This document shows positions 2-31,115 of a stretch of DNA of 64,000 bases, one piece after another. Positions within the stretch are counted from its first letter, which is position 1, and each line of letters opens with the position of its first letter. Made by a program: the position numbers and the translations under genes. A model generated the notes under the pieces. That model was not told the DNA's origin. It worked only from the letters and a program-made list of their open reading frames with translations, and did no database searches. Source of the stretch: Brooklawnia cerclae (GTDB lineage: Bacteria > Actinomycetota > Actinomycetes > Propionibacteriales > Propionibacteriaceae); NCBI RefSeq assembly GCF_011758645.1, contig NZ_JAAMOZ010000001.1, positions 1,674,001 through 1,738,000 of the forward strand. Reading direction: 5' to 3'.

Positions 2-1612
2 TCGGATCGCGACACCGCTTTGATAAAAGCGTCGGTAGGGGATCAGGATGACAGAGGACTCCCGCAGATGCCTATCAAATTCATCTTCCGAGAGGAATCG
101 CGAATCAACCTTCCACCCGGACACCTTTGGCCAGTTTCGTCCGAAAACGCGAAAATCCCACTTACCGGACGACCTCGCCGCAAGGACTTCCATGAGTTCG
201 ACGTCTCTGTCCGGTTTGTATTGCCCCATGACGGATATGACTCCAGGGAGATGAGCGGCACGGACACTCTCGGTTCCCACCGATATCGGGTGAGGCAGGA
301 AGACAATGGCCTTTTCAGGTTCGCCGCCTCTCTGAAGTTCCCGCGCGGCCTGTTTGCTGTGAACGACTATGGAGGTTCTACCAAAGCTCCTTCCTATTCT
401 CCGCGCAAGCGAACCGTATCCGACCGCAGCGACTAGAGGGAGTGGGTCGTGGATGATAAGGTAGCTTCGTCCGGCGAGGAGCGAGAGAACTACGCGATCG
501 AGGTGCCCAATCACAGGCCAGACTGAGACAATCGGGGTCGATCCCGCGATTCTCTTCGCACGCCAGATAGCCGACAGATAGCTACCGAGCCAGCCAAATC
601 GAGATCTCCCCGATGCTGATGGCTCCATGAGTCCAATCTCATCAGCTGCGATGTTGCTCTCTGAGCAGATCTGTCGCACCTCAGTTCCGTAGTGAGCCAG
701 TGCAGCACCAAGCGGGTTAACGATGACTAGACGCTCTTCGCGCGAGGGAAGGGGTTCAAGACAACCAGCAATTAACTGACGAAGCTCGTAAGGACGACGG
801 TGCACAACCAGGCTCAGCGCTCGCCGGGTGACAATTACGGGTACGGCCCAAAGACGCCATACAAATGAATGATGCTTGCGGGCAAGCAAGCGCGTGTTAC
901 GTCCGAAGTATCTTGGCGGTACTCCATCCGAGCTTTGCCACACTCTGGCCTCAGGAACCCAACCTAGTTTCCCCCCGGCATAGCCGAGCCTCCGGTGCAG
1001 ATCCACTTCTTCCATATACATAAAAAAGCTCTCATCGAAAGGTTTCGAAGGAAGAGCAGATGCTCGATACAGCACAAAGGCTCCATCAAGCCATTCGCGA
1101 TGTTCGATCGGATGACCCGTCCATGCACTGGAAGACCGGTGTGCGTAATGCCGCAGAGTTCCGGTTCGCGTCGAATACCCGCCCGCCGACCAGATAAAGG
1201 TCGAACCGTCTTTCTCGGATGATAAGAGAGTGGGCCCAACTGCCGATAAGTTATTGTCTTGTACAAGAGCCGCTCGAAGCTTGCGAACGCTCCCGCGCTC
1301 TACACGAACTTCGTGAGTCGCTACAAGCAAATATTGGGGCACCGTCCCACGCAGGCGAAGCTTACGGAGGCCATCATTTACTGCTGCCCCATATCCGCGA
1401 TTTGCTACATCGACCACGACAACCCCTTCCGGCAGCCCTGCCTGAAGCGCCGCAAGCACAGTTTCATCATCCGAGTTGTCTACGACCATGAGATGACCGG
1501 GGGGGATCCCCTCGTCGAGTAGTACCCGGACGACTGAGCCGATAGTATCTAAGCGCTTGTGGTGAACAACAATCGCCCATACGTCGTCAATCAGTTCAGA
1601 TTTTTCAACCAC
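2..1612 (-). CDS. Fused GT2 + GT-B glycosyltransferase (3' end cut by window edge)
   Basis: The frame is open from a GTG at 1612 to the left edge (537 codons, no stop). An AGGAGG sits 8 nt before the GTG, which overlaps the end of the upstream glycosyltransferase gene by 22 bp. Residues 1-240 are a GT-A/GT2 domain of the rhamnosyltransferase type: VVDNSDD at 43-49, ANRGYGAAVNDGL at 70-82, and FDESFFMYMEEVDLHRRLG at 192-210. The usual DxD metal site is replaced by ATHEV near 98-102. From about residue 296 (LVIVNPLGAALAHYG) a second Rossmann domain begins that looks like a GT-B enzyme (VVHSKQAARELQRGG, then VISVMGQYKPDRDVELMEVLAAR-type phosphosugar-binding half). It probably adds two sugars to an exported polysaccharide at the cytoplasmic face. 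A missed stop between two genes is unlikely because the frame is continuous. Confidence 0.8.
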   Translation of the reverse strand, partial: MVEKSELIDDVWAIVVHHKRLDTIGSVVRVLLDEGIPPGHLMVVDNSDDETVLAALQAGLPEGVVVVDVANRGYGAAVNDGLRKLRLRGTVPQYLLVATHEVRVERGSVRKLRAALVQDNNLSAVGPTLLSSEKDGSTFIWSAGGYSTRTGTLRHYAHRSSSAWTGHPIEHREWLDGAFVLYRASALPSKPFDESFFMYMEEVDLHRRLGYAGGKLGWVPEARVWQSSDGVPPRYFGRNTRLLARKHHSFVWRLWAVPVIVTRRALSLVVHRRPYELRQLIAGCLEPLPSREERLVIVNPLGAALAHYGTEVRQICSESNIAADEIGLMEPSASGRSRFGWLGSYLSAIWRAKRIAGSTPIVSVWPVIGHLDRVVLSLLAGRSYLIIHDPLPLVAAVGYGSLARRIGRSFGRTSIVVHSKQAARELQRGGEPEKAIVFLPHPISVGTESVRAAHLPGVISVMGQYKPDRDVELMEVLAARSSGKWDFRVFGRNWPKVSGWKVDSRFLSEDEFDRHLRESSVILIPYRRFYQSGVAIR

Positions 1613-2640
1613 CGATCAGCCTCCTCTCGACCTTCCACTGCGGGTAGGCTCGCTTGCACCACACCCTGATCAAGCGGTGCGGACATAGCTCGCATAAGTG
1701 CAATGCTCAACGAAGCCGCAACATCCTCGACAACCATATGGCCGTTCGCCTGCAGCCAAGAAGCGAGCCCCGTCTCTGCGGAAGATACAACCGTAAGCCC
1801 GTAGGAAAGAGCTTCCTTGACCGGCAGCCCAATTTGCTCACGCCACCGACCGGACCTAATAGAGGGAGCAACGAGAATCCTATTAGATGAATACCAGGTG
1901 ATGAGGTCCCCGTGCTCGACATGCCCAACGAATCTGCGCTGTTTGGGGGCACCCTCCACCCATTCTTCAATGGTTTCACGCAGAGGACCCGAACCCACAA
2001 TCGTCAGGACTGCGTCGTCGTCAAAACGTACTATCTGTTCCCAAGCCATCATTAGTTCCTTAACGCCCTTGCGCGCTTCCAAACGGCCGACGAAAAGTAC
2101 ATGTTTAGGATCCCCAGAGGTCCGTGTTGGGGCTGCAGCTGGCAGTTCCAAGATCACACGGGTGCGTACACGTTGGGGGAGCGATAACGACTCGTAGGTC
2201 TGTTGTGCACCGCAGCTGCCATATGCCAACCGGTCAACCGTGAGCCCTATACACCACCTCATTAAAAGGACGATCGGTGAAGTAAGAAGTTGTCGGAATG
2301 GATCTGGGAAACCCAGAATATTCGCAACTTCGTTATTCTCGATGCAATATGCGACAATTTGCGTTTTGGGCTTTAAGATTCGCACAATAAAAGCAGAAAT
2401 AAACGTCCTTACTGATTCACGAATCCAGAGTGGCTCGGGAATCTCAACGACACGGATCTCGGAGCGATAGAGGAAACGGATGAGGGTGGGAAATGAGAAA
2501 GGTATAAAGTTTCTCGAAATCGGAATTCTGGTCAGATCCCAATTAGTCTTGTAATACATCACCACCTCGTCTATACCCCAACTATCATGACGCTCAACAT
2601 GGGCTGAACGAAGCTCGGGTATCATCCTCAAAGTAGTCAA
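1591..2640 (-). CDS. Glycosyltransferase family 4 (GT-B)
   Basis: A 349-residue GT-B glycosyltransferase. The C-terminal half carries the family 4 signature: KHVLFVGRLEARKGVKELMMAW (read as separate blocks), LTIVGSGPLRETIEEWV and the acceptor/donor loop APSIRSGRWREQIGLPVKEAL, where the E of GLPVKEAL corresponds to the conserved EX7E second glutamate. It should transfer a nucleotide-activated sugar to a growing lipid-linked oligosaccharide. The TTG start overlaps the stop of the preceding gene by 4 nt (TTGA), so translation is probably coupled; an in-frame ATG at 2625 is an alternative start because no strong Shine-Dalgarno precedes either. The acceptor and sugar cannot be read from sequence. 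Confidence 0.85.
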   Translation of the reverse strand: MTTLRMIPELRSAHVERHDSWGIDEVVMYYKTNWDLTRIPISRNFIPFSFPTLIRFLYRSEIRVVEIPEPLWIRESVRTFISAFIVRILKPKTQIVAYCIENNEVANILGFPDPFRQLLTSPIVLLMRWCIGLTVDRLAYGSCGAQQTYESLSLPQRVRTRVILELPAAAPTRTSGDPKHVLFVGRLEARKGVKELMMAWEQIVRFDDDAVLTIVGSGPLRETIEEWVEGAPKQRRFVGHVEHGDLITWYSSNRILVAPSIRSGRWREQIGLPVKEALSYGLTVVSSAETGLASWLQANGHMVVEDVAASLSIALMRAMSAPLDQGVVQASLPAVEGREEADRWLKNLN

Positions 2641-3752
2641 CTCTGCCGCCTACTAGCCTCGCGAAGCGTCGTTTCGTAAGAGTGATTGATCTTCTCCCAA
2701 GAGTATTCCTTATGCGCTCGTTCTTGAGCCCCTCGCGAAAGAACTTCCGCGCGACCAACATTGCTTAACAAGGCAAGCACGGCTTCTTGAATCTCATTGG
2801 CGTTAGGCTGCACGAACTCAGCATGCTCTGCTAATACTTCACGATTGAACACCGTGTCACGCGCCACCGTCGGCGCTCCGCACGCCATAGCCTGAACCAA
2901 TGCGGGGTTCGTTCCGCCGACGCTATGCCCATGGAAGTACACACCGGCATGTTCCCAAAGTCCGAACAGCAGATCGTCGTCGCTCACTTGTCCAAGGGCA
3001 TGCACGCGGGGATTGGCAGCGGACAAGGCCTGGACTTGCTCGTCGACCACTCCCCCGTAACCAGAGCTTCCAACGATGACGACATCGGCCTGCTTGGCGA
3101 TGGCTGGAACCGCCTCGAGAAATTGCTGCACAGAGTTTTCAGGAACAAAACGCGCGACAAACAAGACATAGCGTCGCGATGGAAGCCCCAGTGGGGGTAG
3201 CGCGCTTCGTGGACGGAACGTTCCGCCATAGGCAATGATGACGCTCTCGCGTCCGAACTCTTCTCGCCACCGGCGAGCGATCTCAATGGAGTCGCATACG
3301 ATCACCTTGGCGAAGCGAGCTGTCATCCGCGCCCCCAGCTTGAAAACCGCCCGCCCTAGTCTGTTCCATTTCTCACGTTCCCACTCTATCCCGTCGACGT
3401 TTACAACGGTCGGGATACCTCGCAGACGCAAAAGCGGCAACCAATAGCCATTTGCAACGTTCATAACCAAAGCAACAGAAGGCTTCCTCCACATTGCATG
3501 GAGAACAGAAGTTAGACCGAAAGAAAGAGTACTCGCTGACTTGCTCTCCACGCCACGAGTGAATACTGACCTGACACGCCGGTCACGCGTTGGGTCGTCC
3601 CGTCTCACACTCTTTTCACGGCCGTAGACGGTCACATCCCAGCCCGCATCCACAAGAAATGGCGCCAACTGACGCACGGCAGTCTCGAAGCCCCCGTAGT
3701 AGCTCGGATACCCCCGTGTTCCGATGATGACCGCAGTTGGATTAGTTTTCAA
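2637..3752 (-). CDS. Glycosyltransferase with DUF1972-type N-terminus (rhamnosyltransferase-like)
   Basis: A 371-residue GT-B protein. The N-terminus AVIIGTRGYPSYYGGFET is the hallmark of the DUF1972/family 4 rhamnosyltransferases of capsule and exopolysaccharide clusters. The C-terminal half has YVLFVARFVPENSVQQFLEA and a HGHSVGGTNPALVQAMACG loop, the equivalent of the EX7E donor-binding region. The chosen start is TTG at 3752 (a GAGAAGG-like sequence lies about 10 nt upstream); no better start exists without cutting the conserved motif. It is followed directly by the next glycosyltransferase with a 4-nt overlap, so the three glycosyltransferase genes form one transcription unit. Sugar specificity is unknown. 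Confidence 0.85.
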   Translation of the reverse strand: MKTNPTAVIIGTRGYPSYYGGFETAVRQLAPFLVDAGWDVTVYGREKSVRRDDPTRDRRVRSVFTRGVESKSASTLSFGLTSVLHAMWRKPSVALVMNVANGYWLPLLRLRGIPTVVNVDGIEWEREKWNRLGRAVFKLGARMTARFAKVIVCDSIEIARRWREEFGRESVIIAYGGTFRPRSALPPLGLPSRRYVLFVARFVPENSVQQFLEAVPAIAKQADVVIVGSSGYGGVVDEQVQALSAANPRVHALGQVSDDDLLFGLWEHAGVYFHGHSVGGTNPALVQAMACGAPTVARDTVFNREVLAEHAEFVQPNANEIQEAVLALLSNVGRAEVLSRGAQERAHKEYSWEKINHSYETTLREASRRQS

Positions 3753-20856: not shown

Positions 20857-21927
20857 TCATACCGGGGGTGAGGCGTACTCGTCGTCCGGACGAGCCTTCT
20901 TGCTCGGCTGCACCCGGGGAGGCTCCCCCGGCATCTTCGGATATTCGGGGGGATACGGCATCTCGGCTCCACCGTCGCGATCGTCGGCGGCGTAGAGCGC
21001 CAAGGCCTCGCGGAGACTGCGGGGTTCGGACGCGTGCAACGGCGCCCACACATCACCCCGCTCGCGATACCGGTCGGGCATGGTCACGACGGTGAACTCG
21101 TCCGGGTGGGCGCTCGGCACCTCTTCCCAGGTCAGCGGTGCCGACACCCTCGCCTGCGGAACCGGCCGGATCGAGTAAGGGCCGGCCATCAGGCGATCAC
21201 GAGCCATCTGGTTGTAGTCGACGAAGACGCGCTCGCCCCGCTCCTCCTTCCACCAGTCCACCGTCACCCGATCGGGCATGATCCGGGCGAGCCGGCGGCC
21301 GATGGCGATCGCGGCATGCCGGGCGTCGACGAAGTCGACCGGCTCCACCTTCGCGAAGACGTGCAGGCCGCGTCCGCCGCTCGTCTTCGGATACGGATCG
21401 AGCCCGAGATCGACCATCACGCCCCGCAGCTCGAGGGCGGCGTCCACCGCGTCGGAGAAGTCCGTTCCCGGTTGGGGGTCGAGGTCGATGCGCAACTCGT
21501 CCACCTGCTCGGTGCGGGGTGCTGTCACCGGCCAGGGATGGAAGCGCAGCGTCCCGAGGTTGAGCGCCCACACGATCGTCGCGAGGTTGGACGGTGTGAT
21601 CGCGGTGGCGGTGCGTCCCGACGGATAGGTGACCTCGGCGGTGTCGACCCACGACGGCCGGCTCTGTGGTGCGCGTTTCTGGTAGAAGGCGTCCCCCTTG
21701 CCGTCGGTGCGCGTGGTGAGCCTCATGCCGTCGCGGACGCCGCCCGGCCAGCGCTCGAGCGTGGTCGGACGCAACCGGAGCCCGGCCAGCATGCCCTCCC
21801 CCACGGTGAGCACGTACTGCGCCAGATCGCCCTTGGTGATCCCCAGATCAGGGAAGTAGACCTTCTCGGGGCTCGACAGGCGCACGGGCAGCCCGCCGAC
21901 GTCGAGCTCGATCGCGTTGGTCGCCAT
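20857..21927 (-). CDS. LigD-type DNA polymerase/primase domain protein (stand-alone PolDom)
   Basis: 356 residues from ATG 21927. It is the archaeo-eukaryotic primase-like polymerase domain of LigD: LTVGEGMLAGLRLRPTTLER, WALNLGTLRFHPWPV, DELRIDLDPQPGTDF (metal-binding DxD), KTSGGRGLHVFA and VFVDYNQMARDRLMAGPYS. These enzymes add ribonucleotides at breaks during non-homologous end joining or gap repair. No ligase or nuclease domain is attached and no Ku gene is near. It precedes ppk2 on the same strand (47-bp gap) and is divergent from msrB. Confidence 0.9.
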   Translation of the reverse strand: MATNAIELDVGGLPVRLSSPEKVYFPDLGITKGDLAQYVLTVGEGMLAGLRLRPTTLERWPGGVRDGMRLTTRTDGKGDAFYQKRAPQSRPSWVDTAEVTYPSGRTATAITPSNLATIVWALNLGTLRFHPWPVTAPRTEQVDELRIDLDPQPGTDFSDAVDAALELRGVMVDLGLDPYPKTSGGRGLHVFAKVEPVDFVDARHAAIAIGRRLARIMPDRVTVDWWKEERGERVFVDYNQMARDRLMAGPYSIRPVPQARVSAPLTWEEVPSAHPDEFTVVTMPDRYRERGDVWAPLHASEPRSLREALALYAADDRDGGAEMPYPPEYPKMPGEPPRVQPSKKARPDDEYASPPV

Positions 21928-21982
21928 GAGGCAAGGGTAGGCGAGCCGAAGGTACGCTGGAAGAAGTTGAAAGGAGAACGAC

Positions 21983-22417
21983 GTGGCGACATCCCTGCCG
22001 GGTGACGGCTCATTCAAGCTGACCGACGAGCAGTGGCGCGTGCGACTCAACCCCCAGGAGTTCCAGGTGCTCCGGCGCGCGGGCACCGAGCGTCCCTTCG
22101 CCGGCGAATACACCGACACCCAGACCGTGGGCATCTACCGATGCCGCGCCTGCGGCGCCGAACTGTTCCGCAGCGAGACGAAGTTCGAATCGCACTGCGG
22201 TTGGCCCAGTTTCTTCGCTCCGCTCGCCGAGGAACGCGTCCGTTACCTTCAGGACGACTCCATCCTCGGGCACTCTCGCGTCGAGGTCCGGTGCGCCAAC
22301 TGCGACTCCCACCTCGGGCACGTCTTCGAGGGCGAGGGCTACCAGACCCCGACCGACCTTCGCTACTGCATCAACTCCATCAGCCTCACCCTCGAACCCA
22401 CCCAGTCGGCGTCCTGA
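21983..22417 (+). CDS. msrB: Peptide-methionine (R)-S-oxide reductase
   Basis: 144 residues from GTG 21983 with AAAGGAG 6 nt upstream. Two zinc CxxC pairs (CRACG and CANCD), the FESHCGWPSFF block and the catalytic Cys in LRYCINSISL identify MsrB, which reduces the R form of oxidised methionine using thioredoxin. Length is normal for the family. It stands alone in divergent orientation to the LigD-type polymerase. Confidence 0.95.
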   Translation: MATSLPGDGSFKLTDEQWRVRLNPQEFQVLRRAGTERPFAGEYTDTQTVGIYRCRACGAELFRSETKFESHCGWPSFFAPLAEERVRYLQDDSILGHSRVEVRCANCDSHLGHVFEGEGYQTPTDLRYCINSISLTLEPTQSAS

Positions 22418-24350: not shown

Positions 24351-26324
24351 TCACCTGGTTGGACGACGGGGCTCAGTGACGGTCTCGGCGGGCCGATACC
24401 GGACGGCACCAGGCAACCGATCGTCAGGCAACCGATCGTCGGCGGAATCGTTCTCGTCGACAGCGACGGCCTCGATGATCGACCGCGCCACGGCGCCCGG
24501 GGTCAGGCCGATGTCGGCCAGCACCTCGGCACGGCTGGCCGTCGGCAGGTACTCCTGCGGCACACCGAAATGGCGTACAGGCACGTCGACACCCGCGTCC
24601 GACATGGCCAACGCCAACCGAGAGCCCAGGCCACCGACGATCAGATCGTCCTCGATCGTGGCCACCATCCGATAACCGGAGCACAGTTCGACCAGCGCGT
24701 CGCTCACCGGCAACCCCCAGACGGGATCGACGACACCCGCCGCGATTCCCTCGCGTTCGAGCAGCTTGGCAGCTTCGACGGCGACCTGGCACATCGAGCC
24801 CCAGGCCACGATGAGGACGTTCTTCTGCTCGGTGAACACGAGGTGATCGAGGCCCTCGCGGGTGGTGACCGCGGGCAACGGGTCGGGCAGCCTGCCCTTG
24901 GCGTAGCGGATGAGCGTAGGCCCGTCACGCCTGGTGGTGGCCGCTTCCAGAGCAGCATGCAGGCGCGGTTGATCGCGTGGGGCCGCCAATCGGAGGCCGG
25001 GCACGATCCCGGCCAGCGCGACGTCCCACACACCGTTGTGGCTGGCACCGTCAGACCCGGTCACCCCGGCCCGGTCGCAGACGATCGTGACCGGCAGGTG
25101 ATGCAGTCCCACGTCCATGACCAACTGGTCGAGGGCGCGGTTCAGGAATGTCGAGTACACGGCGAACACCGGATGCAGGCCGGTCCTGGCCAGGCCCGCC
25201 GCGTATGTCATTGCGTGCTGCTCGGCTATGCCGACGTCAAAAACGCGCTCGGGATACATTGCCGCGAATCGCGCCAGCCCCACGGGATGCAGCATCGCGG
25301 CGGTCAGGGCGACGAGCTTCGGGTTGCTCTCGCCGAGCTCGACCATCTCCTGGCCGAAGGCCTCCGTCCAGGTGGCGTGGGACGAGGGGTTGATCGGCGC
25401 CCCGGTGACCGCGTCGATGGGCCCGATGCTGTGGAACAGGTCGATCTCGTACTGCTCGGCTGCCCGGAAGCCCCTTCCCTTCTGGGTGATGGCGTGGACG
25501 ACGACCGGACCGCCGAATCCCTTCGCCTGCCGGAGCGCCAGCACCAGGGCTCCGATGTCGTGGCCGTCGACGGGACCGACGTACTTGATGTCCAGGTCGG
25601 AGAACAGCCCTTGCGGGGCGAGCACGTCCTTCAGCCCGGCCTTGACCCCGTGCAGCAGCTCATACGCCGGACGCCCCACCACCGGTGTGCGGCGGATGGA
25701 CGTGCGGATCGTGTCCAGCGTCGGCTCGTAGCGGGGACTCGTGCGAATCGCCGACAGATGCGCCGAGAGCCCGCCCACGGTCGGCGCGTACGACCTGCCG
25801 TTGTCGTTGACGACGATCACCATCGGCAGTTCGGTGACGGCGATGTTGTTGAGGGCTTCCCAAACCATCCCCCCGGTCAGGGCACCGTCCCCGATCACGG
25901 CGACCACGGTTCGGTCGCTCGCCCCCTGCAGACGGAACCCCTGGGCGAGTCCGTGGGCCCACCCGAGGGACGCCGAGGCGTGCGAGTTCTCGACCCAGTC
26001 GTGCCCGGACTCGGCTCGCGACGGATAGCCGGACAGCCCGTCCTTGCGGCGCAACGTCGGAAACCCCCCGCGACGGCCGGTCAGGATCTTGTGGACATAG
26101 CTCTGGTGACCGGTGTCGAACACGATCGGGTCATGGGGTGAATCGAACACCAGATGCAGGGCGATCGTCAGTTCGACCACTCCCAGGTTGGGCCCCAGAT
26201 GCCCACCGGTTCGGCTCACGTTCGTGATGAGGAACCGGCGGATCTCGGCCGCCAGGCTCGTGAGCTCATCGGACGACAGCCGGCGCAGATCGTCCGGACG
26301 ATTGATGGAATCCAACAGGGGCAT
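24351..26324 (-). CDS. dxs: 1-deoxy-D-xylulose-5-phosphate synthase
   Basis: 657 residues from ATG 26324 (starts MPLLDSINRPDDLRRLSSDE). It makes DXP from pyruvate and glyceraldehyde-3-phosphate with thiamine diphosphate, the first step of the MEP isoprenoid route. Visible motifs: GGHLGPNLGVVELTIALH, the TPP site VAVIGDGALTGGMVWEALNN, DLKYVGPVDGHD-type (here DLDIKYVGPVDGHD), and the pyrimidine-domain DVGIAEQHAMTYAAGLA followed by AVYSTFLNRALDQLVMDVGL. Length is normal. The gene is convergent with the RNase D gene. Confidence 0.96.
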   Translation of the reverse strand: MPLLDSINRPDDLRRLSSDELTSLAAEIRRFLITNVSRTGGHLGPNLGVVELTIALHLVFDSPHDPIVFDTGHQSYVHKILTGRRGGFPTLRRKDGLSGYPSRAESGHDWVENSHASASLGWAHGLAQGFRLQGASDRTVVAVIGDGALTGGMVWEALNNIAVTELPMVIVVNDNGRSYAPTVGGLSAHLSAIRTSPRYEPTLDTIRTSIRRTPVVGRPAYELLHGVKAGLKDVLAPQGLFSDLDIKYVGPVDGHDIGALVLALRQAKGFGGPVVVHAITQKGRGFRAAEQYEIDLFHSIGPIDAVTGAPINPSSHATWTEAFGQEMVELGESNPKLVALTAAMLHPVGLARFAAMYPERVFDVGIAEQHAMTYAAGLARTGLHPVFAVYSTFLNRALDQLVMDVGLHHLPVTIVCDRAGVTGSDGASHNGVWDVALAGIVPGLRLAAPRDQPRLHAALEAATTRRDGPTLIRYAKGRLPDPLPAVTTREGLDHLVFTEQKNVLIVAWGSMCQVAVEAAKLLEREGIAAGVVDPVWGLPVSDALVELCSGYRMVATIEDDLIVGGLGSRLALAMSDAGVDVPVRHFGVPQEYLPTASRAEVLADIGLTPGAVARSIIEAVAVDENDSADDRLPDDRLPGAVRYRPAETVTEPRRPTR

Positions 26325-26390
26325 GGTGCGAATCCTAGGCCCGGTACCGCACAAGGACGTATGACCCGGGTCCCCGGTTTCATCCCGCAC

Positions 26391-26927
26391 CTACGGCCTG
26401 CGGATGAACACCTTTCCTCGAAGAGCCTCCTCGACCAGCGCGATCGCCCGTCGGAGACGGACCAGTCGCCGCTCGTCGGCCTCGAGCATCGCCGTCGCGG
26501 CGTCGAGCGTCTGCGGCCCTGGCTGATCGTCCGAACTCGAGCGGGCCCTGGCCAGCGCCCGGCGGTTCGATCTGATCCGGCCTTCGACAAAATCGGCTGC
26601 GAACCTGGCCAGCACCGTCGGATGCCGGTGCAAGACGGGATACGCGCGATAGCCGGACGGGCAGCAGTCGAACAACCACGCCGAAGCGCTCTGCTCCCAG
26701 TCGGGCGCACCGGGCGGGAGAACCGCCTCAGGCCATCCGGTGGGCAGACCGAGCCGGCCGAAGCCGGTGCCGCCGGCCTGCCCCGCGGAATGCCCCGCCG
26801 TGGTATGGGCCGACCCGCCGGTCTGGTGCACGGGGGCTGCGCTCACCCCGCCGGGCCGGAACTGACGAAAAACCAAGACCGGGGCCATGTCGTCCCCAGA
26901 CCCACGTCGATATGCGACGGCAGTCAT
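26391..26927 (-). CDS. Conserved actinobacterial unknown protein behind a LexA box
   Basis: 178 residues from ATG 26927, with GGAGG 5 nt upstream (AGGAGG region), which fixes the start inside a longer open frame. The N-terminal half is Gly/Ala-rich and probably disordered. The C-terminal half WEQSASAWLFDCCPSGYRAY, PVLHRHPTVLARFAADFVEG, then DAATAMLEADERRLVRLRRA is helical and conserved-looking. I recall similar WLFDxCPxxYRxYxVLRRHP proteins in many actinobacteria, without a function. A 16-bp SOS box lies 37 nt upstream of the ATG, so expression is probably induced by DNA damage. Lies just upstream of dxs, same strand. Confidence 0.75.
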   Translation of the reverse strand: MTAVAYRRGSGDDMAPVLVFRQFRPGGVSAAPVHQTGGSAHTTAGHSAGQAGGTGFGRLGLPTGWPEAVLPPGAPDWEQSASAWLFDCCPSGYRAYPVLHRHPTVLARFAADFVEGRIRSNRRALARARSSSDDQPGPQTLDAATAMLEADERRLVRLRRAIALVEEALRGKVFIRRP

Positions 26928-26963
26928 GACGTCCTCCTGTGCGTCTCGCTGGAGTTCCAACGT

Positions 26964-26979
26964 TCGAACATGTGTTCGA
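26964..26979. promoter_or_regulatory. LexA (SOS) box
   Basis: TCGAACATGTGTTCGA fits the mycobacterial/actinobacterial LexA consensus TCGAAC-N4-GTTCGA exactly. It lies 37 nt before the minus-strand gene ending at 26927 and 117 nt before the plus-strand HIT gene, so the minus-strand gene is the likelier target. Confidence 0.85.
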
Positions 26980-27095
26980 TTGGTTCCAGTGTGCACGCCT
27001 GCACTGACAAAATCCAGTACCCCGCGCCGGTCGACGGATTTGGGCCCAGAGCGGACACCGCCCGCACATTCGGCCCCGCGCGCAACACTGGACCA

Positions 27096-27509
27096 GTGGA
27101 TGTCTTCGACCAGATCGTCGCCGGTGATGTGCCCGCGGAGGTGATCGCCCGCAACGACCGGGCCATCGCCTTCCTCGACACCCGCCCGCTCTTCCCCGGC
27201 CACGCACTGGTGTGCCCCGTCGATCACTACGAGACCTTCTACGACCTGCCGGCCGATCTCTACGCCGCGATCTGTTCGCTGGCGCGCCGAGTCGCCCTCG
27301 CGCAGAGGGACGCGCTCGACGCCGAGGGCACGTTCCTGGGGAACAACAACATAGTCAGCCAGTCGGTGCCGCATTTCCATCTGCACGTCGTACCCCGGCA
27401 CCGGGGCGACGGCCTGCGAGGATTCTTCTGGCCACGCACACGCCCGTCGTCCGACGAGCTTCATGCCGTGGGCGACCGGCTACGCGCCGTGATCGAGGAG
27501 CAACGATGA
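27096..27509 (+). CDS. HIT-family protein (nucleotide hydrolase/transferase)
   Basis: 137 residues from GTG 27096. The histidine triad is HFHLHVVPR, preceded by LFPGHALVCPVDHYETFYDL and a NNNIVSQSVPH segment. HIT enzymes hydrolyse nucleoside phosphoramidates or dinucleoside polyphosphates in the cytoplasm. The GTG was picked because VFDQIVAGDVPAEVIARND is the usual HIT N-terminus. It overlaps the next small gene by 4 nt (ATGA). The upstream region carries the LexA box of the divergent gene. Confidence 0.92.
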   Translation: MDVFDQIVAGDVPAEVIARNDRAIAFLDTRPLFPGHALVCPVDHYETFYDLPADLYAAICSLARRVALAQRDALDAEGTFLGNNNIVSQSVPHFHLHVVPRHRGDGLRGFFWPRTRPSSDELHAVGDRLRAVIEEQR

Positions 27510-27817
27510 GCGACGTCTTCAATATCTTCATGCCCGGCGCCAAGCACTGGGACGAGGTCAAACGCGCCGAGAAGATGCTCCTCGTCGAATCCCAGAAGGG
27601 CGGCGAGGGCCCCGGGCGCCTCGACCTCGACGAGGGTTTCCTGGTGATGCGCGACCGCACCGGTCAGGCCACCGAGACCTCCACCGACGTCGGCAACCCC
27701 AATCGCCTGCGCCCCCAGGCGGCTCCCGAGGACGAGCACAAGACGGCGTCCGACGACATCACGGGAGCGTCGCGCGACGCTCAGGCCGACGATGGGTCGG
27801 GCCCGGACGCCGACTGA
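27506..27817 (+). CDS. Small acidic protein, possibly DUF6191-like
   Basis: 103 residues coupled to the HIT gene by an ATGA overlap. The N-terminus MSDVFNIFMPGAKHWDEVKR then AEKMLLVESQKGGEGPGRLD and LDEGFLVMRD resembles DUF6191-type proteins (a FxPGxKH then VDLDxG pattern); the last 40 residues are acidic and disordered. No membrane segment or catalytic motif is seen. Function unknown. Confidence 0.6.
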   Translation: MSDVFNIFMPGAKHWDEVKRAEKMLLVESQKGGEGPGRLDLDEGFLVMRDRTGQATETSTDVGNPNRLRPQAAPEDEHKTASDDITGASRDAQADDGSGPDAD

Positions 27818-28037: not shown

Positions 28038-28943
28038 CTACAGCTGGAGTTGCCGCCGCCTCATCTCCGCGATCATGCGTACAGAATCCGCGAAACCGGG
28101 TGGGTCCGCGAGCACCCGCCGCACGGCGAATCTGACCATCTGCCAACCGAGCACCGCCAGACGCTCGTCCCGCAGACGGTTGGCAACGAACGCGTCCGGA
28201 CGATCGTGGTACTCGGCGCCGTCGATCTCGAATCCCAGTCGCAGCGCGACCATGGCGATGTCGAGGACGGCCAGCGGCGGGCCGTCGGGCGAGTCGATCA
28301 CCGGATGGTTCGCGACCCAACCGCCCACGCCCGCCTCACGCAACGCGCAGTGCGCCACCCGCTCGGCGTACGACCATGGTTGATCCCGGGCGTCGTCCAG
28401 AACCGACCGGCGCAATGCGTTCCCAGGACGATTCGGTGTAGCCGCCAGGGCCGCGCGAAGGTCGTCCAACCGGACGCGTCGACGCAGCGCCTCGTCCACG
28501 ATCGCGGGGCCGCATTCGGGAATCAGGTCGACCGTGGTCAGCGCCCTCGACGTGCACCTGACCAGGCCGACTCGGCGCGTCAGCCATGCGGGCACCGTCC
28601 GACGGGTTGCCAAGAGCCAGTCCCGCGACCGAAGCCGTGCCGTGGCCACCTCGATGGGGTCGCCGTCCGCGACCAGCCAGTCGTGCAGCACTGCGGCCGC
28701 ATGGCCCGCGATGATCGCGTCCGGGTCCGCGAGGGCAACCGCCCGTGTTCTGACGGCGAAACCCGATGCCTCGTCCGGACGCGCATGGACGCCGGGCAAC
28801 ACTCGCACCAGCTGCCCGCTGCGCAGCGCCCAATCGATCTGCCCACCCAGCGCCGGCAATGCCGCACGGCTGATCACGCCGCCATTGCCCGCGAGTTCTT
28901 CTTCCAGTCGTCGATGCACGAACAGATGGTGGGAGCGAACCAC
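28038..28943 (-). CDS. AbiEi/DUF559-like protein (Vsr-fold endonuclease-like C-terminus)
   Basis: 301 residues from GTG 28943. The N-terminal quarter GVISRAALPALGGQIDWALR then SGQLVRVLPGVHARPDE is the winged-helix of AbiEi-type antitoxins (type IV toxin-antitoxin). The C-terminus has EREAGVGGW-like (REAGVGGWVANHPVID), then LDIAMVALRLGFEIDGAEYH, DRPDAFVANRLRDERLAVLG and WQMVRFAVRRVLADP, the DUF559/Vsr-like endonuclease pattern (the D of the LD pair, the E of FEIDG, H, R). Proteins of this architecture are frequent singletons in actinobacteria; no AbiEii toxin is next to it. The gene and its upstream gap are bracketed by copies 2 and 3 of the dispersed repeat. Confidence 0.75.
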   Translation of the reverse strand: MVRSHHLFVHRRLEEELAGNGGVISRAALPALGGQIDWALRSGQLVRVLPGVHARPDEASGFAVRTRAVALADPDAIIAGHAAAVLHDWLVADGDPIEVATARLRSRDWLLATRRTVPAWLTRRVGLVRCTSRALTTVDLIPECGPAIVDEALRRRVRLDDLRAALAATPNRPGNALRRSVLDDARDQPWSYAERVAHCALREAGVGGWVANHPVIDSPDGPPLAVLDIAMVALRLGFEIDGAEYHDRPDAFVANRLRDERLAVLGWQMVRFAVRRVLADPPGFADSVRMIAEMRRRQLQL

Positions 28944-30294: not shown

Positions 30295-30717
30295 TCACTG
30301 CGGAGTGACGATCTCGAGCCCGTCGAACCGCCGGAAGTCACGGTCGAACGTCGCGACCGGGCAGCCGTGTTGGACTGCGACCGCGGCGAGGTAGGCATCC
30401 GGGATCAGATTGGCAGATGCCTCGGCATCCGCAGCGAGTTGAAGAAAAGGCTCGATCCCGTCGACGAGTCCTGCGACGTGACGGTAGCCTCCCGCACCCG
30501 CCACCGCACGTACGAACGTAAGCGCATCCGCAAGCGTCGACGGAATTTCGAAGATGCGTGTGTTCGTGACGATACGCAGAAACCCCGACCAGACCGAGTC
30601 TGGGACGACGACCGTGTCCTCGGAAAGACTGCGCTGAAGAAACATTCTCGCTCGGTCGTGATGAGGATGCTCACCGAAGTACGCAGCGACAAGCACGTTG
30701 ACATCGACGACGATCAC
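30295..30717 (-). CDS. vapC: VapC-type PIN-domain toxin
   Basis: 140 residues. PIN-domain acidic residues are visible in MIVVDVNVLVAAYFGEHPHH, in the central SVWSGFLRIVTN block (where Glu is often found), in NLIPDAYLAAVAVQHG and in VATFDRDFRRFDGL. VapC enzymes cut specific RNAs, often tRNA or the sarcin-ricin loop, and stop growth. The ATG overlaps the stop of the upstream antitoxin gene by 4 nt. The TNTRIFEIPSTLADAL segment is the typical second helix of the actinobacterial TA-system VapC. Confidence 0.92.
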   Translation of the reverse strand: MIVVDVNVLVAAYFGEHPHHDRARMFLQRSLSEDTVVVPDSVWSGFLRIVTNTRIFEIPSTLADALTFVRAVAGAGGYRHVAGLVDGIEPFLQLAADAEASANLIPDAYLAAVAVQHGCPVATFDRDFRRFDGLEIVTPQ

Positions 30718-30962
30718 GAGCGCCCCCGCGTCACCTCGTCGAGCATGTCGTACAAGGAGCGGTTCGACGACGGGTCGACTCCCGATCGCGGACGACCCCC
30801 TGGGAAGACCGGCAGGTCCACCGGTGCTGCCGAGTGGTGCGGCGCGGACAGATAGTCGCGCAGAGCCTCTTCGACGAAACCACCCAGCGTCAGCCCCTGC
30901 GCACTCGCGCGTTGTTTCGCGCGCTTGAGAAGCGCCTCATCGATCGAAAGCGTGGTGCGCAT
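30714..30962 (-). CDS. vapB: VapB-type ribbon-helix-helix antitoxin
   Basis: 82 residues from ATG 30962 (an ATG 9 nt upstream is in frame). MRTTLSIDEALLKRAKQRAS then AQGLTLGGFVEEALRDYL is a ribbon-helix-helix domain; the tail LPVFPGGRPRSGVDPSSNRS followed by LYDMLDEV is the toxin-binding part. It represses its own operon and neutralises VapC. A TAAAAT hexamer lies about 8-13 nt upstream of the ATG, so the mRNA may be leaderless or nearly so. Confidence 0.92.
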   Translation of the reverse strand: MRTTLSIDEALLKRAKQRASAQGLTLGGFVEEALRDYLSAPHHSAAPVDLPVFPGGRPRSGVDPSSNRSLYDMLDEVTRGRS

Positions 30963-31115
30963 GATGCACATTTTACAGCATCACTCGCATCAACCAGGAC
31001 GAGAGGACGAGCCGGGCCGGCGTCCCACCACCGCGCGACCAGACGCGCAATGCCGGGACGCCGCCCTCGCCCGACCAACTCCGCTCAGCCCGGGCCCGCC
31101 AGGGGCCGGCCTCGA

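Follow-up and report, generated by a model that had tools for sequence, protein, structure and literature searches.

The window, that is the whole 64-kb stretch of DNA that was analysed, carries on its minus strand at 26391..26927 a gene encoding a protein of 178 amino acids (ATG at 26927-26925, TAG stop). A complete SOS box before this reading frame had been described in an earlier sequence-only reading and was borne out: the LexA box TCGAACATGTGTTCGA at 26964-26979 (no strand assigned) shows 0 mismatches to TCGAACN4GTTCGA and is the only perfect 16-mer of that pattern in the window, in which matches with up to three mismatches number 80, compared with a mean of 35.9 after shuffling. Its distance to the ATG is 36 nt and not the 37 nt given previously. 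The ribosome-binding site GGAGG (26933..26937, minus strand) lies 5 nt before the ATG and aligns with AGGAGG preceding the ATG in relatives of the same genus, which share both the start and the ribosome-binding site, in agreement with the earlier description of the start as well supported. The GC content by codon position (0.72/0.60/0.80) is moderately coding-like.

Just upstream of the LexA box is a second regulatory signal, overlooked earlier: positions 27010-26988 read TTGTCAGTG-CAGGCGTG-CACACT. Here TTGTCAGTG (27002..27010, minus strand) is a putative PafBC -26 element, separated by 8 nt from the putative -10 element CACACT (26988..26993, minus strand), after which a further 8 nt lead to the LexA box. 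The consensus of RecA-NDp/PafBC promoters given in PMC5656591 is tTGTCRgtg-8 nt-TannnT, and PMC11804915 describes the -26 motif as PafBC-specific and bound by PafB. The window sequence matches 11 of the 12 specified bases, its -10 element beginning with C where the consensus has T. A scan of 26200-27150 for sigma-70 promoters and terminators found none.

The gene is followed, 66 nt after its stop codon, by dxs (24351..26324, minus strand; start assigned by eye), which is not an evident LexA target. On the other side lies a divergent HIT-domain gene (27096..27509, plus strand; GTG start assigned by eye; Pfam HIT 7.1e-18 for 27099-27509), also not thought to be a target of the box. The surroundings hold several further genes. 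A 103-amino-acid protein with a sub-threshold match to DUF6191 is encoded after the HIT gene (27506-27817, plus strand), and the product of 28038-28943 (minus strand) weakly matches MTES_1575 (endonuclease-like) at its C-terminus and AbiEi_4 at its N-terminus, in each case below the Pfam cut-offs. At 30295-30971 (minus strand) a PIN-domain protein (Pfam PIN 5.5e-15) overlaps a small upstream ORF without a Pfam match; the two look like a VapBC-type toxin-antitoxin pair, the antitoxin being recognized by eye only. The ORF at 20857-22134 (minus strand) resembles, by eye, the LigD-type polymerase domain of non-homologous end joining.

LexA boxes and PafBC-type motifs in the genome

The core pattern CGAACN4GTTCG occurs at 20 places in the whole genome, compared with two for a reversed control pattern. 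Six of the 20 are perfect 16-mers: the window box, one inside a reading frame, and four that precede imuA'-imuB, lexA, a helicase-like gene (UvrD 7.9e-5, just under the cut-off), and a DUF222-HNH gene, while boxes short of the full 16-mer precede ruvC and recA. Classical LexA targets in this genome carry boxes of the window kind, with eight of the 20 core matches having been placed relative to genes or frames, and LexA itself is encoded, its domains being found at locus L159. At locus L162 a perfect SOS box (1492-1507) stands 13 nt before a helicase-like ORF with weak Pfam scores (1521-3001, the locus end), a further little-known candidate LexA target.

The genome also encodes PafC (PF19187 HTH_PafC, 1.4e-39) and, beside it, a WYL/WCX protein that is presumably PafB. 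A loosened PafBC motif has 29 matches genome-wide, of which 23 overlap a GC3-rich open frame; 11 of the 29 have a candidate start within 200 nt, and only four of these 11 genes are repair-like. Such motifs lie 7 nt before uvrB (above the cut-off) and before uvrA-like (71 nt), lhr-like (9 nt), and rmuC-like (7 nt) genes, the last three assignments being made from partial sequences and below curated cut-offs. It is also worth mentioning that at locus L201 (about 1501-2829) TTGTCAGTG-N8-TACGCT stands 7 nt before a gene with weak matches to sensor histidine kinases, possibly a PafBC-controlled kinase.

The box and the putative PafBC promoter across the family

The window protein belongs to an actinomycete family, which a 28-member profile detected within the class in 152 of 394 genomes and 69 of 138 sampled genera. 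Among 96 related genomes a family match was obtained in 47, one of which, G062, was weak and had no domain match on later reading. Ten loci on named contigs match, from Brooklawnia, an uncultured Propionibacterium, Nocardioidaceae, and Geodermatophilaceae; in a phylum sample of unstated make-up by class 9 of 246 genomes match, namely the window's own and eight of its class. Named relatives include Nonomuraea, Embleya, and Streptomyces chartreusis: the nearest row of group f20 is 86% identical to the copy of Nonomuraea gerenzanensis, and the nearest row of the Streptomycetaceae-like group f22 is 97% identical to an S. chartreusis protein. A phage or otherwise mobile origin was considered and rejected: viral contigs gave 69 pattern matches but no confirmed relative, and phage records contained no family member.

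The box was examined in 144 non-redundant loci, the best-scoring matches, obtained from 149 homologous loci by removal of five duplicates; at each, the best-matching box in the 300 nt preceding the domain was scored, and 2209 equally long windows from the same loci served as controls. This box has 0 mismatches in 48 loci, one in 26, two in seven, and three to five in 63, the control windows giving 0, 5, and 68 for zero, one, and two mismatches. A box with at most one mismatch is therefore present at 74 of the 144 loci versus 5 of the 2209 controls (Fisher p 9e-93, a value that treats related loci as independent), and none of 77 windows upstream of dxs contains one. Since the 144 loci were the best-scoring ones, a second set of 44 further loci was counted, G062 having given no domain match; both sets leave out about five genomes of the class, with weak matches or matches at contig edges. 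The second set holds three perfect, two one-mismatch, and four two-mismatch boxes, so that up to two mismatches are found at 81/144 loci of the first set and 9/44 of the second. The earlier proposal of a new DNA-damage-response gene, for which a search for the box in other actinobacterial homologues had been suggested and absence from all relatives named as refutation, was not refuted by this test and is supported, with boxes at 74 loci of the first set, to which the second adds five. A chance origin of the window box was rejected on the basis of its being a single perfect 16-mer, the genome-wide excess over the reversed pattern, and the homologue and dxs controls.

The boxes are unevenly distributed among taxonomic groups. 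With at most one mismatch they are found in f1 (Propionibacteriaceae; 23/28), f3 (14/15), f20 (26/30), Geodermatophilaceae (6/7), f50 (1/1), and f36 (4/6), that is in six of 29 groups, and in none of the other 23 nor in any of the four further groups of the second set. They persist without an adjacent dxs, which is found at 0/30 loci of f20 and 0/15 of f3. All boxes of the second set belong to the same f1, f3, and f20: two of two loci in f3, two of two in f20, and one of seven in f1 have at most one mismatch, four more f1 loci have two, and at the remaining 33 loci, f22 accounting for 17, there is no box within two mismatches. All 24 loci of f22 (7/7 in the first set and 17/17 in the second) are without a box within three mismatches. 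Judged from these upstream regions, the LexA box of the family is lineage-specific. Moreover, 63/144 loci of the first set and 35/44 of the second (no box within two mismatches) are box-less, though perfect boxes stand elsewhere in 48 of the 58 genomes whose homologue is box-less, and damage control of the family is on this comparison not universal. On a family tree of 141 rows (L029, L030, and L108 left out; L027, containing Ns, not in the state count) most of the larger groups form one clade each and the box state changes nine times, consistent with its having been gained or lost a limited number of times. Loss of LexA as the cause of lost boxes in f36 is not supported, as a LexA domain is present in all six genomes.

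The PafBC-type block of the window is found again in L005, L006, L039, and L024, 30-33 nt ahead of the box and with diverged flanks, and L032 carries a decayed copy. A strict motif, TGTCR-[11 nt]-[TC]ANNNT, was found in only 14 of the 144 loci: in 8 of the 63 box-less homologues (f28, f31, f33, f36, and f41; other gaps 0-2) and in 6 of the 81 boxed loci, all from f1 (other gaps 0-4). Regions drawn at random from these loci gave 9/2880 (other gaps 0-6), a comparison to be read with the region lengths, 83 nt for box-less loci and controls and longer for boxed loci, and with the facts that a gap of 11 is the commonest in the control too and that the control did not exclude true promoters. The looser PafBC core is present in 11/63 box-less and 10/81 boxed loci versus 86/4418 control windows; nine of these 11 motifs at box-less loci end 12-28 nt before the domain start, the position expected of a leaderless promoter. 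In the second set only 1 of the 35 box-less loci has a PafBC motif near the start, so a PafBC switch would explain a minority of them.

The predicted protein

The conserved part of the protein comprises residues 60-178 (26394..26750, minus strand), delimited by alignments and AlphaFold, with a PGWP segment, three short helices, and a long helical hairpin. The conserved helical C-terminus noted from the sequence reappears in the AlphaFold model of this domain (119 residues), which is all-helical with a mean pLDDT of 92.9, the helices spanning 18-29, 32-36, 38-42, 44-71, and 79-110 in domain numbering and the long hairpin being antiparallel. The N-terminal extension, residues 1-60 (26748..26927, minus strand), is poorly conserved and probably disordered (block pLDDT 47-54), and a large part of it falls outside the region alignable between taxonomic groups. 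The overall prediction is of a soluble protein in which a disordered tail precedes a helical hairpin.

An alignment of 97 sequences shows W6, P7, and P31 to be invariant and D28, R35, and R70 nearly so, few invariant polar residues, and no conserved set of typical catalytic residues. The window protein contains no hydrophobic segment (highest 19-residue hydropathy mean 0.67); its net charge is +7, that of its domain +4, and the mean among boxed members is 0.36. The absence of a typical catalytic set and of a hydrophobic segment, together with the low mean charge, weighs slightly against an enzymatic or a purely DNA-binding role.

That the protein has no known function, as was stated at the outset, agrees with the searches: no convincing match was found in Pfam, NCBIfam, PHROGs, PADLOC, or PDB, and the profile matches of the 97 members are scattered and weak, the best (E 0.00073) being obtained for 2/97. 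Foldseek found no structural match to the predicted fold at or below E 0.001, the best values being 0.58 in PDB and 0.60 in BFVD. The family is not named by any profile library or solved structure searched, and a search of the open-access literature, in which it has no name to search by, gave no paper tied to it.

Regulation and possible role

The consensus box at its promoter, in a genome encoding LexA, makes it highly probable that the window gene is under LexA control; control by PafBC is graded lower. Taken together, the two signals suggest PafBC as the probable activator of the gene and LexA as its probable repressor. Transcription would proceed from the PafBC-type promoter, with the -26 element at 27010-27002 and the -10 element at 26993-26988. 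The end of the latter at 26988 suggests a transcription start near 26981, and with the LexA box beginning at 26979 the repressor would occupy the start site of a promoter activated by PafBC; a LexA dimer on 26964-26979, next to the expected start, would block it. Single-stranded DNA would activate PafBC and, as a RecA filament, would also trigger LexA cleavage; the promoter would act as an AND gate, needing both PafBC activation and LexA removal.

Both signals are carried by the mycobacterial recA, uvrA, and uvrC genes according to PMC8223512, a RecA-NDp (PafBC) promoter being combined with an SOS box as at the window gene (PMC8223512 and PMC5656591). Mycobacterial recA has two promoters, P1 (PafBC) and P2 (LexA), whereas the window gene would have one of PafBC type, with the LexA box directly downstream of the -10 element; we infer this one-promoter arrangement. 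The window protein is unrelated to mycobacterial RecA, UvrA, and UvrC. The LexA regulon of Streptomyces venezuelae, as presented in PMC9380542, has the same kind of box and many targets of unknown function; in contrast, the f22 family members are without a box, and work on the Streptomyces regulon is not expected to show the family.

The reading that we moderately favour places the gene in an actinomycete family, itself unnamed, whose products are small, soluble, and helical; in the window lineage the protein would be made upon DNA damage through PafBC and LexA. The chances seem evenly balanced for the wider proposal that the family genuinely takes part in the response to DNA damage, with LexA as the regulator in some lineages, PafBC in others, and the two combined as an AND gate in the Brooklawnia-like genus of the window, its helical-hairpin protein acting on repair or replication by an undescribed mechanism. 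Its presence in 69 of the sampled genera, with boxes in six groups and PafBC-like promoters in several others, makes it a strong candidate for a repair or damage-tolerance factor. More tentatively, the protein may serve as a non-catalytic adaptor for a partner in repair, recombination, or replication, with binding proposed to occur through the helical hairpin together with the conserved PGWP segment.

Of the other explanations, the best placed, still rather unlikely in our estimate, is a housekeeping gene with a core job in the acnA/RNA-methyltransferase/dxs neighbourhood, which in some lineages later acquired LexA or PafBC promoters. A same-strand dxs begins no more than 400 nt downstream in 65 of the 144 loci, from 20 groups; its position next to the gene looks like old synteny, so that the sequence-only reading was right about the neighbour and wrong in calling the place unexpected. 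An aconitase-like gene (acnA) ends within 400 nt upstream on the same strand in 26 loci, 25 of them box-less, and a TRAM-domain RNA methyltransferase ends within that distance upstream in 10, eight of them box-less (both counted by BLAST to one representative each and confirmed by Pfam). Transcription probably reaches the gene from its upstream neighbour in many lineages, and at the acnA-linked loci it may be expressed with metabolism. This neighbourhood provides the best argument for damage control added to a gene with an older role, and the confinement of the box to six groups points the same way; it is countered by the two different damage-type promoters in separate lineages and by the boxes kept in f20 and f3, where the gene has left that neighbourhood.

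SOS regulons elsewhere include the division-delaying proteins YneA, SidA, DivS, and ChiZ, and division-checkpoint genes of this kind are often lineage-specific. A small protein of no known function behind an SOS box could likewise be a checkpoint protein delaying cell division; however, those proteins are mostly membrane or wall proteins, and neither a transmembrane segment (see the hydropathy above) nor LysM or another known domain, wall-binding or otherwise, was found in the window protein, so that such a role appears improbable. Still less can be said for an accessory subunit of the ImuA'-ImuB-DnaE2 mutasome, suggested by the LexA boxes common to the window gene and imuA'-imuB in this genome. 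Co-occurrence with ImuB does not support it: 26 of the 47 family-matching relatives (the unconfirmed G062 among them) are without an ImuB match at E<=1e-20, and within f1 ImuB is present in 13/36 carriers and 10/21 non-carriers of the family (Fisher p 0.42). The presence of the family does not depend on the ImuB mutasome. Finally, that the box serves the HIT gene, which starts about 116 nt from it, or the nearby dxs, the ORF being incidental, is scarcely credible and was rejected, because 50 of 73 boxes with at most one mismatch (an earlier table, with 73 and not 74 boxes) lie within 36 nt of the family domain start, the windows upstream of dxs gave no such box, and dxs is not adjacent in f20 and f3.

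The window promoter offers a compact place for testing PafBC activation and LexA repression together. Family members also occur in four plasmid-labelled records, from Nonomuraea, Embleya, and Streptomyces. The homologue OHA25_RS60570 (WP_327591388.1), on a Nonomuraea sp. plasmid, is annotated only as a hypothetical protein and is homologous over nearly the full domain (148 bits); its best box has two mismatches, compared with a single one in the box of the N. gerenzanensis copy, TCGAACATGAGTACGA.
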